This document shows positions 41,911 through 46,295 of a DNA stretch of 52,262 bases, piece by piece (position 1 is the stretch's first letter; each line of letters opens with the position of its first letter). The stretch is from Thermoplasmatota archaeon (GTDB taxonomy: Archaea > Thermoplasmatota > Thermoplasmata > Thermoplasmatales > GCA-001856825), in the NCBI GenBank assembly GCA_023381415.1, contig JAMCUN010000022.1, forward strand, positions 1-52,262, given 5' to 3'. The notes under the pieces were generated by a model. It had not been told where the DNA came from. It saw only the letters and a program-made list of their open reading frames with translations, and made no database searches. The translations under genes were made by a program, and so were the position numbers.

Positions 41911-42777
41911 TTGCCTGGAACTATTAAAATTAATGAACCCGCTCCTAAGAATCCAGTGGATTTCAAGATCAGCGCTGAGAATGAGAACATAAAGAACATA
42001 GACAACGTGCTGGTTGTCATGAGCGGAAAGGGTGGGGTCGGAAAATCTACCGTCTCCACCAATCTGGCAGTTGAACTTTCATCAAGGGGCTACCAGGTCG
42101 GACTAATAGATGCAGACATGCATGGGCCCGATATTCCGCAAATGCTCGGCCTGGTTGATGACAGGCCTGTTATGGACGAAAACAAGAAGATTGTGCCGGT
42201 AAGATACAGCAACAATCTCAGGGTCATCTCCATTGAATACTTCCTGCCGTCCAGGGATACCCCTGTGATCTGGAGGGGAGCACTGAAACACAAGATGATA
42301 GAACAGTTCATCACGGACATAGCATGGGGAAAACTGGACTTCTTGATATTCGACCTTCCACCAGGAACCGGGGACGAGGCTCTCTCCATCGTGCAGCTGA
42401 TACCCAAGGTCACGGGATTTGTGATAGTGGGCACACCACAGGAAGTTGCGATGATCGACGTTAAGAAGGCGATTAATTTCGCAAAGCAGCTGAACGCACC
42501 TGTGGTCGGTCTAATAGAGAATATGAGCGGATTTGTCTGCCCACACTGCGGTGAGACCACGTTCATTTTCAAGAAGGGATCAGGGGAGAAGATTTCGAAA
42601 GAGTTTGGAATAGACTTCCTAGGTTCAATACCCATGGAGGCCTCTGTGGTAGAGGACGGTGACGATGGTACTCCTATGGTGCTTTCGCATCCTGAGAGCA
42701 ACAGCTCTAAGAGTTTCAAGAGTATAGTCGACAGAATCCTTGTCTACCCAGGGTTAAAAAAGTCAAAGGATGCTTGA
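41911..42777 (+). CDS. Mrp/NBP35-type ATPase, Fe-S cluster carrier
   Basis: P-loop ATPase of the Mrp/ApbC family that binds and transfers Fe-S clusters. The deviant Walker A SGKGGVGKST is at residues 39-48, DADMHGPDIP follows, and the CPHC cysteine pair near residue 210 is the cluster site. 288 residues. The start is TTG 41911 with a very strong ribosome site (GGAGGAGGTGA, ending about 5 bases upstream). It would serve the many Fe-S proteins here (Rieske, NapH-like, aconitase X). Confidence 0.92.
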   Translation: MPGTIKINEPAPKNPVDFKISAENENIKNIDNVLVVMSGKGGVGKSTVSTNLAVELSSRGYQVGLIDADMHGPDIPQMLGLVDDRPVMDENKKIVPVRYSNNLRVISIEYFLPSRDTPVIWRGALKHKMIEQFITDIAWGKLDFLIFDLPPGTGDEALSIVQLIPKVTGFVIVGTPQEVAMIDVKKAINFAKQLNAPVVGLIENMSGFVCPHCGETTFIFKKGSGEKISKEFGIDFLGSIPMEASVVEDGDDGTPMVLSHPESNSSKSFKSIVDRILVYPGLKKSKDA

Positions 42778-42803
42778 ATGACAGGGAAAATCAGGAAAGG
42801 CAT

Positions 42804-43724
42804 ATGAGACTCAGGACCCAAGAACTTTCAAAGACATATGATAAGAAGTTTCCAGCACTAGACAACCTGAATCTAGACCTGAACATGAACGGGATCTTTT
42901 CCATAATAGGCAGGAACGGCGCTGGCAAGACGACTTTGGTGAGGATACTTTCAACCGAGCTTCTCCCGACATCGGGGAAGGGGTTCTTAAACGATATGGA
43001 TGTCGTAGATGATGCTGAAGAGGTCAGGCAATACATTGCCGTCGTCCCGCAGGAAGCACGTCCCCTTCCCTGGTTGACACCGCTCCAGACAGTAAGCTCG
43101 TATCTCATGTGGAGAGGCTACTCCTATCGGGAATCAAAGGAAAAGGCAAAGGAGGCCCTTAGAGAGCTCGGACTTGAAGGGAAGGAGGGGCAGAAGAGCA
43201 GGAAGCTGTCTGGTGGTCAGAAGAGGAAACTAATGGTAGCAACGGTGATATCGAGCGAGGCACCAGTGGTTTTTTTGGACGAACCGACAACAGGACTGGA
43301 CTATATTTCGAGGAAGGAGCTCTGGCAGTTGCTGTCAAGGATGAAAAAGGACAGGCTGATAATCCTGACGACACACTACCTCGAGGAAGCTGAGACGCTA
43401 GGCGACCAGATAATGATACTGGACAAGGGGAAGCTAGTTGATATAGGGGGGATAGATGACCTGAGGTCTAAAGTCAGACTCCCCTACGTTCTAAAGGTTT
43501 ACTCTCAGAATTTCAAGATAGAGGAGGAGGGAGTGCAGGTGCAGAAGATATCTGATAGAGAAACGTTCGTCTACGGGTCAGCTTCAAAGATATACGGCAT
43601 CATTCCTTACCTCGTGACAAACAAGATGAAGTTTACTGTAGAGGAGGCTTCGCTGAGCAACATATTCGAGCAGTACCTGGGAACGGGGGAGGATGAGAAA
43701 AGTGATGAAGAGGAAAGTTGGTAG
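42804..43724 (+). CDS. ABC transporter ATP-binding protein
   Basis: Walker A IGRNGAGKTTL, signature LSGGQKRKL, Walker B VVFLDEPTTGLD and H-loop TTHYLEEAE, as in the DrrA group, with a C-terminal extension. ATG 42804 follows an AGGAAAGG ribosome site; TTG 42774, overlapping the Mrp stop, would add ten residues. The 3' end overlaps the permease gene by 32 bases. A PadR regulator follows, which suggests a regulated export function. Cargo unknown. Confidence 0.9.
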   Translation: MRLRTQELSKTYDKKFPALDNLNLDLNMNGIFSIIGRNGAGKTTLVRILSTELLPTSGKGFLNDMDVVDDAEEVRQYIAVVPQEARPLPWLTPLQTVSSYLMWRGYSYRESKEKAKEALRELGLEGKEGQKSRKLSGGQKRKLMVATVISSEAPVVFLDEPTTGLDYISRKELWQLLSRMKKDRLIILTTHYLEEAETLGDQIMILDKGKLVDIGGIDDLRSKVRLPYVLKVYSQNFKIEEEGVQVQKISDRETFVYGSASKIYGIIPYLVTNKMKFTVEEASLSNIFEQYLGTGEDEKSDEEESW

Positions 43725-44448
43725 CCAGATCGTTGCCTCAATCCTGGTCAATTCAATATATGCGATGATCAACTATCCAGTTGTGCTCATAAATACCCTT
43801 CTCGCTCCTCTTGCCATCCTGGCCGTGGTCACTTTTGCTAGCAAGGGAACCTTGCTACCGGTTGCAGCTGTCGGTGCCCTCATAATGAATATGGTTTCTA
43901 GCGGTACATCCCTGCAGCAGGACCTGTCACACCTAAAGAACGACATGCGACTCCAGGACATGATAGTTAGTTCGCCTACATCCTCACTGGTATATGTGAT
44001 AGGGATGGCAATTTCGGAAATAGTGTATTCAATTCCGACTATAGCATTCCTGATAATACTGAATGTAATATTTGTCAAGGTCACCCTAATCGGCGGGGTT
44101 GTCCTCTTCCTTGATATGGCCACGATATTCACTTTCTCAATTTCCCTTGGATTCTTTTTGTCAACATTCACCTCTGACATCATACAGTCATGGGGCTTTT
44201 CTGGAATCCTTTCTCCCCTACTGACGACAATACCCCCTGTCTACTATCCCATAACCTACATCCCGTTTCCATACAGGTATCTGGCATATCTGTCTCCAAC
44301 CACATACGCTTCTGAGATCGCCCAGAGCCAGACAGGATTCTACAACTTGAGCGCCTCTGGATTTGCTATCGCATGGATAGTTTTGCTGGGAATCACTGCT
44401 GCTCTCACATTTCTCGCACTGAGACGCTCAAGGTGGAGGGAGATATGA
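43693..44448 (+). CDS. ABC-2 type permease
   Basis: 251 residues with six predicted helices in the DrrB-like arrangement, without a large external domain. Pairs with the overlapping ATPase gene. ATG 43693 is used; an in-frame ATG at 43705 is possible. It ends 61 bases before the PadR gene. Confidence 0.88.
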   Translation: MRKVMKRKVGSQIVASILVNSIYAMINYPVVLINTLLAPLAILAVVTFASKGTLLPVAAVGALIMNMVSSGTSLQQDLSHLKNDMRLQDMIVSSPTSSLVYVIGMAISEIVYSIPTIAFLIILNVIFVKVTLIGGVVLFLDMATIFTFSISLGFFLSTFTSDIIQSWGFSGILSPLLTTIPPVYYPITYIPFPYRYLAYLSPTTYASEIAQSQTGFYNLSASGFAIAWIVLLGITAALTFLALRRSRWREI

Positions 44449-44475
44449 CCTGTTACCCGAGAAATGTATTCATCC

Positions 44476-44501
44476 TTAAATACGACAGATAATTGAGTCG
44501 T
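44476..44501 (+). promoter_or_regulatory. TATA box plus inverted repeat before the PadR gene
   Basis: TTAAATAC at 44476-44483 is about 30 bases before ATG 44510. ACGAC (44482-44486) and GTCGT (44497-44501) form an inverted repeat with centres one DNA turn and a half apart, between TATA box and start codon. This suits autorepression by PadR. Confidence 0.45.
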
Positions 44502-44509
44502 AAGGTTAG

Positions 44510-44866
44510 ATGAAAGAGGACGGAAGGGAAAGAACGTTCAAGGGCATCATATCTCTTGTAATTCTGAAGTGCCTATGGAATGAGTCTGGCTATGGGTACC
44601 AGCTGGAGAAAGAGATTGACAGGTGTATCGGCCAGAAACTTTCGAATGGGGAGGTCTATTCAATCCTGAAGAACATGGAAATCAGGGGCCTTATAAGGAA
44701 CGTTCCAAAGCCTGAAACGACCGGAAAGCGGAAATATTATGAAATATCGCTTGAGGGAAAGGAATACCTCAAGAACCAGGTGAAGAACATGGAGTTCGCT
44801 ATCAATTCATTCCAGGAAATCATCAAATTCGTTAATTCAGTACAGGACAAGACGACGGAGGGATAG
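44510..44866 (+). CDS. PadR-family transcriptional regulator
   Basis: 118 residues with a winged helix: FKGIISLVILKCLWN, ESGYGYQLEKEI, LSNGEVYSILKNMEIRGLI and RKYYEISLEGKEYL are typical of PadR proteins, and a C-terminal helix supports dimerisation. It probably controls the adjacent ABC-2 transporter and its own gene through the inverted repeat upstream. The ligand is unknown. Confidence 0.85.
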   Translation: MKEDGRERTFKGIISLVILKCLWNESGYGYQLEKEIDRCIGQKLSNGEVYSILKNMEIRGLIRNVPKPETTGKRKYYEISLEGKEYLKNQVKNMEFAINSFQEIIKFVNSVQDKTTEG

Positions 44867-44933
44867 ATCGTGTTCTTCCGTAGAAGGTTTAGCCTTTCCT
44901 AACATTATTATAAAAGCATTGAATTCTAAATTC

Positions 44934-45848
44934 GTGAACCAGAGCGTATTGTTTTATGGAGACGAGGAGATCCTTAAGGCTCTTTCGAAGAAGGGATCTG
45001 AGACAGATATAAGATACTACAACTCAAAGATAGGCGGAAACGAAATTACGTTCCTCTATCCGTTCAAATTCCCGGAGAGGGTACAAACCCTCCTCAATGC
45101 AGCCTCCGTTGCCAACAAGGCAATTCTTGCAGTTGGTGAACTCGACAAGAGCGTTGGTGAATTCTTGCTCGCACTAGACTATAACGAGATAAGGAACCTT
45201 GGGGTCATAGCAGAAGAGCCTCTTTCTCAGCAGATAACAAAAATTGCGAGCGGGATGGGGATATCGTGCCACTCGATGAAGCCCAGTTATGAGGATTTTG
45301 AGAAATTCTCCCTCATACCCGTGGATTCAAGGAGGCAGGAGAACATGGCAGTCCTTGACCAGAGCTTCCAGGTGAAGGGAGTAGGAACTGTGAGCCTTGG
45401 ATTTGTAATGGGAGGCCAGATCAAGAAGCACATGGTAATGAAGGCTTATCCTTCTGGGAAATCGGTTGATATTAAAAATATTCAGATTATGGATGTAGAC
45501 ATGGAAGCAGCTGACCCGTTCTCTAGGGTAGGGCTTGCGTACAGGAACGTGGAAGTCGATGACGTGCCGAAGGGTACCATCCTCTATTCAAAGGAGGGCG
45601 TTGAGTTCAGCGAAAGCATACAGCTCCAGGTCAGGACAAATCCTACCGTCAAAATCGTCCCCTCTGTTGGGGAGAAGATCCAACTCAATTTCCTTTTCAA
45701 TAACGTGAATGCGGAAATTTCCGACATATCAGATGGAAAATTCCTGATTGATGTCGACAGGAAGGTCCCATTGATGGACATAATATTCTCAATAACATCC
45801 CTTAACTCTTCCCCAAGGATAATAGGAGCTGGGAAACCTGCAAATTGA
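44934..45848 (+). CDS. SelB-like translation factor homologue with degenerate GTPase domain
   Basis: About 304 residues. Residues from about 150 resemble EF-Tu/SelB domain 2: SFQVKGVGTVSLGFVMGG, then KNIQIMDVDMEAADPFSRVG and DDVPKGTILYS, followed by a domain 3-like part. The first 130 residues take the place of the GTPase domain but have no P-loop (GxxxxGK[ST]) and no NKxD motif. SelB-like proteins are known in archaea without selenocysteine; their role is unsettled. TTATTATAAAA at 44905-44915 is about 24 bases before GTG 44934 and too near TTG 44919, so GTG is preferred. The stop overlaps the Pcc1-like frame. Confidence 0.75.
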   Translation: MNQSVLFYGDEEILKALSKKGSETDIRYYNSKIGGNEITFLYPFKFPERVQTLLNAASVANKAILAVGELDKSVGEFLLALDYNEIRNLGVIAEEPLSQQITKIASGMGISCHSMKPSYEDFEKFSLIPVDSRRQENMAVLDQSFQVKGVGTVSLGFVMGGQIKKHMVMKAYPSGKSVDIKNIQIMDVDMEAADPFSRVGLAYRNVEVDDVPKGTILYSKEGVEFSESIQLQVRTNPTVKIVPSVGEKIQLNFLFNNVNAEISDISDGKFLIDVDRKVPLMDIIFSITSLNSSPRIIGAGKPAN

Positions 45849-46065
45849 GGCAAAACTCCATATAAGAGGCAATGACGCTGACAACATAATTAAAGGGATC
45901 ATCGCGGATCACCAGGAGTACATAAAGTGCAGGAGAACCAAGGGAGGGTACATCTGCGCCGTTACTGGAGAAACGAACGACGTAAGAAAGACCCTCAACG
46001 AGTTCCTTGAATCGATACTGTACTTGGAGAGAGTATCTGAAAGACTGGATGCCCGAGTGGGGTAG
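45844..46065 (+). CDS. Pcc1-like protein (possible KEOPS subunit) with non-canonical start
   Basis: A 73-codon frame open without ATG, GTG or TTG at its beginning. Translation gives EAKLHIRGNDADNI, then DVRKTLNEFLESILYLERV near the C-terminus, matching the length and pattern of Pcc1, the dimerisation subunit of the KEOPS tRNA t6A complex. The likely start is ATT 45844, whose last base is the first base of the upstream TGA stop (ATTGA), or CTG 45838. The last 15 bases, including the TAG stop, lie inside the next tRNA gene. The family call is by eye and moderate in strength. Confidence 0.55.
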   Translation: MEAKLHIRGNDADNIIKGIIADHQEYIKCRRTKGGYICAVTGETNDVRKTLNEFLESILYLERVSERLDARVG

Positions 46066-46125
46066 TTTGGATTATCCTAGAGGCCCGCGGAGCCTCAGAC
46101 CTGGGTTCGAATCCCAGCTCGGGCA
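46051..46125 (+). tRNA. tRNA, anticodon reads GCG (Arg); identity uncertain
   Basis: Clear cloverleaf: acceptor GCCCGAG/CTCGGGC with discriminator A, D arm GGGT/ATCC, anticodon stem GAGGC/GCCTC with loop CCGCGGA, T arm CTGGG/CCCAG with loop TTCGAAT. Counting the 7-base loop gives anticodon GCG, but position 33 is C instead of the near-universal T, and the D arm looks more like tRNA-Pro. TTTTT follows directly as terminator. The 5' end overlaps the Pcc1-like frame. Confidence 0.8.
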
Positions 46126-46295
46126 TTTTTAAGAAAATATAATGCCGTTTTCATTCAAAGATGTCACAGCATTATTTTTCATTTATTTATAGTATTAAAT
46201 AATAAATAAAGAGTCACCGTTTTTAAATGAGGGTAGGCGCAACATTAAAAGCCTTTGTTTGGAATTCGTCAAGGACCCAAACAAGCTGAAGGAAC
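46126..46295. other. AT-rich stretch after the tRNA
   Basis: Starts with the tRNA terminator (TTTTT) and is strongly AT-rich around 46165-46225. No gene recognised. It marks the change to the gene-poor right-hand region. Confidence 0.4.

Follow-up and report, generated by a model that had tools for sequence, protein, structure and literature searches.

Features of the locus

The window, by which we mean the whole stretch of DNA analysed (52,262 nucleotides), holds a short frame lying between a SelB-like gene and a tRNA gene and sharing bases with both. The features are listed below.

44919–45848, plus strand: SelB/EF-Tu-domain-2-like gene, in which no GTPase domain was recognised; at its 3' end it overlaps the start of the Pcc2 frame by 11 nt
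45824–45828, plus strand: Shine-Dalgarno-like AGGAG, 9 nt before CTG 45838
45838–45840, plus strand: most likely start codon, CTG (14 relatives: 12 CTG, 2 TTG)
45838–46065, plus strand: predicted KEOPS subunit of Pcc2 type, 75 amino acids (family profile against the PDB, AF2 model, Pcc2 clade with support 100/99, purifying selection)
45844–45846, plus strand: second possible start, the ATT of ATTGA (14 relatives: 12 ATT, 2 ATA)
46051–46125, plus strand: tRNA-Arg(GCG), of which the genome gave no second full-length copy (ARAGORN, Rfam RF00005, own-genome search)
46063–46065, plus strand: stop codon TAG, which is bases 13–15 of the tRNA; the four codons before it (ARVG) are within the tRNA too

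From stop to stop the frame covers 45826–46065 (79 codons), of which 75 are counted from CTG 45838–45840 and 73 from ATT 45844–45846. The SelB-like gene ends with TGA at 45846–45848 and overlaps the ATT as ATTGA. The only in-frame ATG, GTG or TTG codons are codons 62 and 73, so a gene caller limited to these three starts finds nothing to call. An earlier note on this DNA had given the position of the frame, its length of 73 codons, the AGGAG 9 nt before CTG 45838 and the ATTGA overlap, and all these coordinates are correct. It was also right that no ATG, GTG or TTG stands near the start, that the stop lies inside the tRNA and, for callers of the kind just described, that the gene would be missed. 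ARAGORN placed the tRNA-Arg(GCG) at 46050–46126 and the Rfam RF00005 match spans 46051–46125 (53 bits), while the second match in its own genome is a tRNA-Arg(TCG).

The SelB-like protein contains EF-Tu domain 2 and has full-length homologues in the window's own family (f1; 15 genomes, with genera g1 to g4) and in two of the other families compared, f3 and f6. Family f4, also compared, gave only short matches of EF-1-alpha type to the SelB-like gene. Upstream of this gene, at 42774–44866, lie an ABC transporter ATPase-like gene, an ABC2 permease and a PadR-type regulator.

A conserved gene under purifying selection

The relatives taken from named records are Thermoplasmata/Thermoplasmatales metagenome-assembled genomes (MAGs). 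Homologues of the frame were found by tblastn in 14 of the 15 f1 genomes, the one without being 52% complete, and every f1 homologue lies directly 3' of the same SelB-like gene and 5' of tRNA-Arg(GCG), so that the synteny the earlier note had proposed to look for is present in 14 of the 15. Identity to the window protein is 63–72% within the genus, and in three other genera the matched part is 42–50% identical; families f3 and f4 of the order have more distant homologues (24–35%). That the gene might stand 3' of the SelB-like gene throughout the order was considered and rejected, as f3 and f6 have the SelB-like gene alone.

In 12 relatives compared, the Pcc2 frame has no stop and the other two forward frames have 2–11 stops each. 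Third codon positions vary about twice as often as the others (65 variable columns, against 32 at first and 29 at second positions), and pS exceeds pN in all 45 same-genus pairs (medians 0.87 and 0.20). The frame is thus not a chance one, and the comparison indicates a real gene under strong purifying selection. Poor conservation among relatives, which would have spoken against the frame, is the opposite of what is seen. A conserved gene that lacks a standard start is the most solid result of this analysis.

Membership in the Pcc1/Pcc2 superfamily

Taken singly, the protein of the window matches no Pcc1 profile in Pfam and NCBIfam scans (PF09341), nor did a PF09341 search of its own genome give one. 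The profile search recommended in the earlier note thus fails with the single protein and succeeds with the family, since among its 27 members 14 reach PF09341 with E ≤ 1, the best with 7e-9. A profile built from the 27 homologues gave eight matches in the PDB, of which seven are KEOPS Pcc1 or Pcc2 sequences (best E 1.5e-10) and the eighth is a designed protein (E 4). The AF2 model of the window protein (pLDDT 93) has the order beta-alpha-beta-beta-alpha (E-H-E-E-H), which is the Pcc topology. Foldseek against the PDB gave TM-scores of 0.63–0.66 to the Pcc1 of 5jmv and 0.56/0.50 to the Pcc2 of 7a66, with a Gon7-Pcc1 entry also among the best. The E-values of these matches are 0.09–0.15 and none is ≤ 0.001, because the small fold resembles KH domains, which rank beside Pcc1 and Pcc2; the fold search therefore supports the assignment to Pcc1/Pcc2 without proving it. 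Taken over the whole family of homologues, which the link needs, the comparisons indicate that the gene encodes a protein of the Pcc1/Pcc2 family.

KEOPS genes and the probable absence of Pcc1

In KEOPS, Pcc2 binds Pcc1 and Kae1 and prevents the formation of superdimers. Also called Pcc1-like, it is the fifth subunit of the archaeal complex (Daugeron et al. 2023, PMC9889334; Wu et al. 2023, PMC10989989), and most archaea carry both Pcc1 and Pcc2 (PMC9889334). In f3 and f4 there is a second Pcc copy beside a canonical Pcc1. In f1 the search with a joint profile found one Pcc gene per genome and no credible second, and neither PF09341 nor a 30-row Pcc1 profile nor the joint profile detected a canonical Pcc1 in the 15 genomes. 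A canonical Pcc1 elsewhere in the genome, which the earlier note had named as an argument against its reading, was accordingly not found by these profiles. Weak Pcc1-profile matches in G013, G011 and G009 turned out on reading not to be Pcc1-like.

Gene order gives a second view of the same point. Canonical Pcc1 lies directly 5' of prefoldin-beta at the f3 and f4 loci listed and at all six f6 loci. The window gene is located 3' of the SelB-like gene and not directly upstream of prefoldin-beta. There are 14 prefoldin-beta loci in f1, of which 13 were counted (at L122 the needed side is not readable), and none of the 13 has a Pcc1 upstream of prefoldin-beta. The slot holds a ThiF/MoeB-like gene, identified by reading the sequence, in most of the genus, and in the rest no convincing frame on that strand.

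The partner genes are present. TsaD/Kae1 was found in 14 of the 15 f1 genomes and Cgi121 in all 15; in the window's own genome the TsaD match (E 1e-66) lies in an open frame of 531 aa and Cgi121 is matched at E 5e-10. Uncut TsaD/Kae1 copies are open frames of 523–541 aa, a length that fits a Kae1-Bud32 fusion. In G009 there are two Cgi121 matches of identical score 4 kb apart on one contig (L075, G009:C42), possibly a duplication or an assembly repeat.

KEOPS is thus present in f1 by gene content, and canonical Pcc1 has probably been lost, with divergence beyond detection as the other possibility; the absence is that seen by profiles in 15 incomplete MAGs (completeness 81% for the window's own genome, 92–93% for three others). 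The alternative that survives best is just such a canonical Pcc1, too diverged for the profiles, in an ordinary five-subunit KEOPS in which the present gene would be an ordinary Pcc2. It gains from the incompleteness of the genomes, from the co-occurrence of both proteins in most archaea, and from the f6 Pcc1, which in several genomes scores only marginally against PF09341. We nevertheless consider it unlikely, though a serious contender, since it would require that three profiles missed the gene in 15 genomes and that it had also left the conserved slot before prefoldin-beta in all 13 readable ones. Loss of canonical Pcc1 is the reading we prefer.

The start codon

All 14 relatives have NTG at the position of 45838, namely CTG in 12 and TTG in two, both of genus g3. 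Nine nt before this position all 14 have GGAG or GGGG (GGRG), and the 16S 3' end TGGATCACCTCCT was found in the window's own genome. Conservation of AGGAG is by itself weak evidence because the same bases encode a conserved Gly-Ala of the SelB-like gene. More telling is the T of the NTG, which is the wobble base of a codon of the upstream gene and is invariant in 14 of 14 although the residue encoded varies between Pro, Ala and Ile; wobble bases further upstream (codons 5–24) agree in only 5–10 of 14. In one relative, G012, an in-frame TAA directly precedes the TTG, so that no upstream start can serve there. By comparison of the relatives, CTG 45838 is the likeliest single start.

It is doubtful, and less probable than an overlooked Pcc1, that translation begins elsewhere, either at ATT 45844 through the ATTGA stop-start overlap or at CTG 45829, or that ribosomes translating the SelB-like gene shift by +1 and produce a fusion protein. 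The first of these was offered by the earlier note beside CTG 45838. ATTGA occurs in 12 of 14 relatives, and ATT is a possible weak start that has been proposed for overlaps of −5 nt (Huber et al. 2023, PMC10666635), but both g3 relatives have ATA at this position while keeping TTG at 45838, and of the two starts CTG 45838 is therefore the better. The NTG at 45829 is as well conserved as that at 45838 (14/14, its T likewise an invariant wobble base). However, GGAG abuts it directly, and in G012 the TAA follows two codons after the position of the 45829 CTG. The frameshift is unlikely, and a fusion is not needed, since in f3 and f6 the C-terminus of the SelB-like protein has the same position with no Pcc2 following it. 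A start at CTG 45838 thus remains our choice.

Probable descent from Pcc2

The earlier note had called the gene Pcc1-like, which holds at the level of the Pcc1 family; within it the profiles and the tree point to the Pcc2 branch and not to canonical Pcc1. The f1 proteins score a median of 30 bits with a profile of the f4 second copies (Pcc2) and 4 with either Pcc1 profile, and hhalign of the f1 family gave E 7e-10 against Pcc2, compared with 1.6e-3 and 1.8e-4 against Pcc1. In the tree they group with the second copies of f3, f4 and f5 with branch support of 100/99. In the alignment, five residues found before beta2 in the Pcc1 rows are missing from both the f1 proteins and the second copies, and a Y-[IVLM]-x-C...C pattern is common to f1 and the Pcc2-type second copies.

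Two neighbouring positions give a mixed picture. Pcc1 has Asn72-Ser/Thr73 and Pcc2 two acidic residues, and an acidic residue at 73 has never been seen in Pcc1 (Daugeron et al. 2023, PMC9889334). All f1 rows of the tree alignment have Asn-Glu, i.e. the Pcc1 state at 72, where the f4 copies have Asp, and the diagnostic Pcc2 state at 73. We have therefore filed the protein as a variant on the Pcc2 branch and not as a typical member. It is like Pcc2 as described (PMC9889334; PMC10989989) in predicted fold, length, acidic residue 73, its grouping with the second Pcc copies in related Thermoplasmata and the KEOPS partners in its genome; it differs in having Asn72 instead of Asp or Glu, no detected Pcc1 partner, a CTG start and a stop within a tRNA gene. 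With canonical Pcc1 (PF09341; PDB 3enc/3eno, 5jmv) it shares the predicted fold and Asn72, but it has Glu and not Ser/Thr at 73, an alpha1-beta2 loop five residues shorter, about 4 bits with Pcc1 profiles and a location away from prefoldin-beta. Gon7/C14, the fifth KEOPS subunit of eukaryotes, also has an acidic residue at the equivalent of position 73, while its sheet topology is different (PMC9889334); here it was compared by Foldseek only.

The gene could instead be the lineage's own canonical Pcc1, strongly diverged, moved away from prefoldin-beta and come to resemble Pcc2, in which case no Pcc1 would have been lost. Asn72, the Pcc1 state, speaks for this, as does the gene being the sole one of the Pcc1 family found in these genomes. 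Constraint tests, which with 75 residues are weak, give p-AU 0.033 for grouping f1 with the f3/f4 Pcc1 and 0.075 for grouping it with the f6 Pcc1, so that at the 0.05 level the former is rejected and the latter retained. This origin is nevertheless improbable, as it would leave the difference in profile scores, the 100/99 branch, the shared five-residue deletion, the shared pattern and Glu73 to convergence. The protein is most likely a Pcc2 descendant.

The canonical Pcc1 of the f6 genomes has Gly or Ser at 72, and most of these genomes have a single PF09341 match (L132–L137). Their Pcc2 is either lost or diverged beyond sight.

The tRNA-Arg(GCG) overlap and a proposed explanation

The stop of the Pcc2 gene is a TAG inside the tRNA in 9 of 14 relatives, a TAA just before the tRNA in three (g1), and separated from it by a spacer of 43–54 nt in two (g3). 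As five of 14 do without the overlap, the last residues appear dispensable and the overlap tolerated, not required. The two spacer genomes (L013, L014) have a TATA-like GATATATTTTTAAC about 20–33 nt before the tRNA. Genera g1, g2 and g4 lack such a spacer and share no conserved TATA-like box; inspection by eye for a tRNA promoter inside the Pcc2 frame gave TATA-like letters in several g1 genomes, which are not conserved and reflect the encoded protein. With no conserved box where the stretch is coding, the tRNA may be co-transcribed with the Pcc2 gene. RNase P cleavage of such a transcript would leave an mRNA without its stop, and competition of mRNA and tRNA for the shared bases is possible.

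The modification t6A37 occurs in tRNAs that read ANN codons. The tRNA-Arg(GCG) has G37 and decodes CGN and so cannot carry t6A; it is not a KEOPS substrate. The functional link between a tRNA-modification subunit and a tRNA gene suggested in the earlier note is not upheld, given this G37 and the five relatives without overlap. For the same reasons it is very improbable that the overlap is a regulatory device in which tRNA processing removes the stop of the mRNA and couples output of the KEOPS subunit to tRNA-Arg maturation, even though nine of 14 relatives take their stop from the tRNA and g1, g2 and g4, unlike the two g3 relatives, have neither spacer nor conserved box.

We favour, with a probability of about two in three, the reading that the frame is expressed, encodes a KEOPS subunit of Pcc2 type which is probably the lineage's sole member of the Pcc1 family, starts at CTG 45838 and takes its stop from the tRNA. 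Ribosomes would most likely be placed by GGAG 45825–45828 and start inside the SelB-like gene, in its final 11 nt, so that translation is probably coupled in part to that of the latter, and would end at the TAG supplied by the D-arm region of the tRNA. Each RNA copy would either be translated first or be cut into tRNA first, and the overlap would be tolerated as something that compaction has brought about. The Pcc2-type protein would have the Kae1(-Bud32) of its own genome as a binding partner and, with no canonical Pcc1 found, would probably pair with itself, doing the work that Pcc1 and Pcc2 otherwise share in t6A synthesis. Against this reading, KEOPS in which Pcc2 replaces Pcc1 was inactive in vitro (Daugeron et al. 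2023, PMC9889334). More tentatively, and at somewhat less than even odds, f1 would be a family of Thermoplasmata without canonical Pcc1, its KEOPS working on a Pcc2-descended subunit alone, with a hybrid Asn72-Glu73, a CUG start that three genera have kept and a stop borrowed from a tRNA.

Pcc2 as a subunit is already known; its setting here is unusual, and a possible Pcc2-only KEOPS is the most interesting point. If the lineage keeps a Pcc2-descended protein alone, it would be a natural test of which residues allow Pcc2 to stand in for Pcc1, with position 72 as the first candidate. A CTG start with its TTG counterpart in relatives would be a useful case for the choice of start codons in archaea. 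A KEOPS gene of this kind can go unseen in many genomes when callers use three starts only and avoid overlap with tRNAs, and there is a precedent in Pcc2 genes overlooked by annotation and recovered by tblastn (PMC9889334; PMC10989989).

A minor observation concerns the tRNA of the window, which has C33 (46086) and, at the discriminator, A73 (46125). In the seven further same-genus copies listed these bases are U33 and G73. Nearly all tRNAs have U33, and the difference is either a real change or an assembly error.
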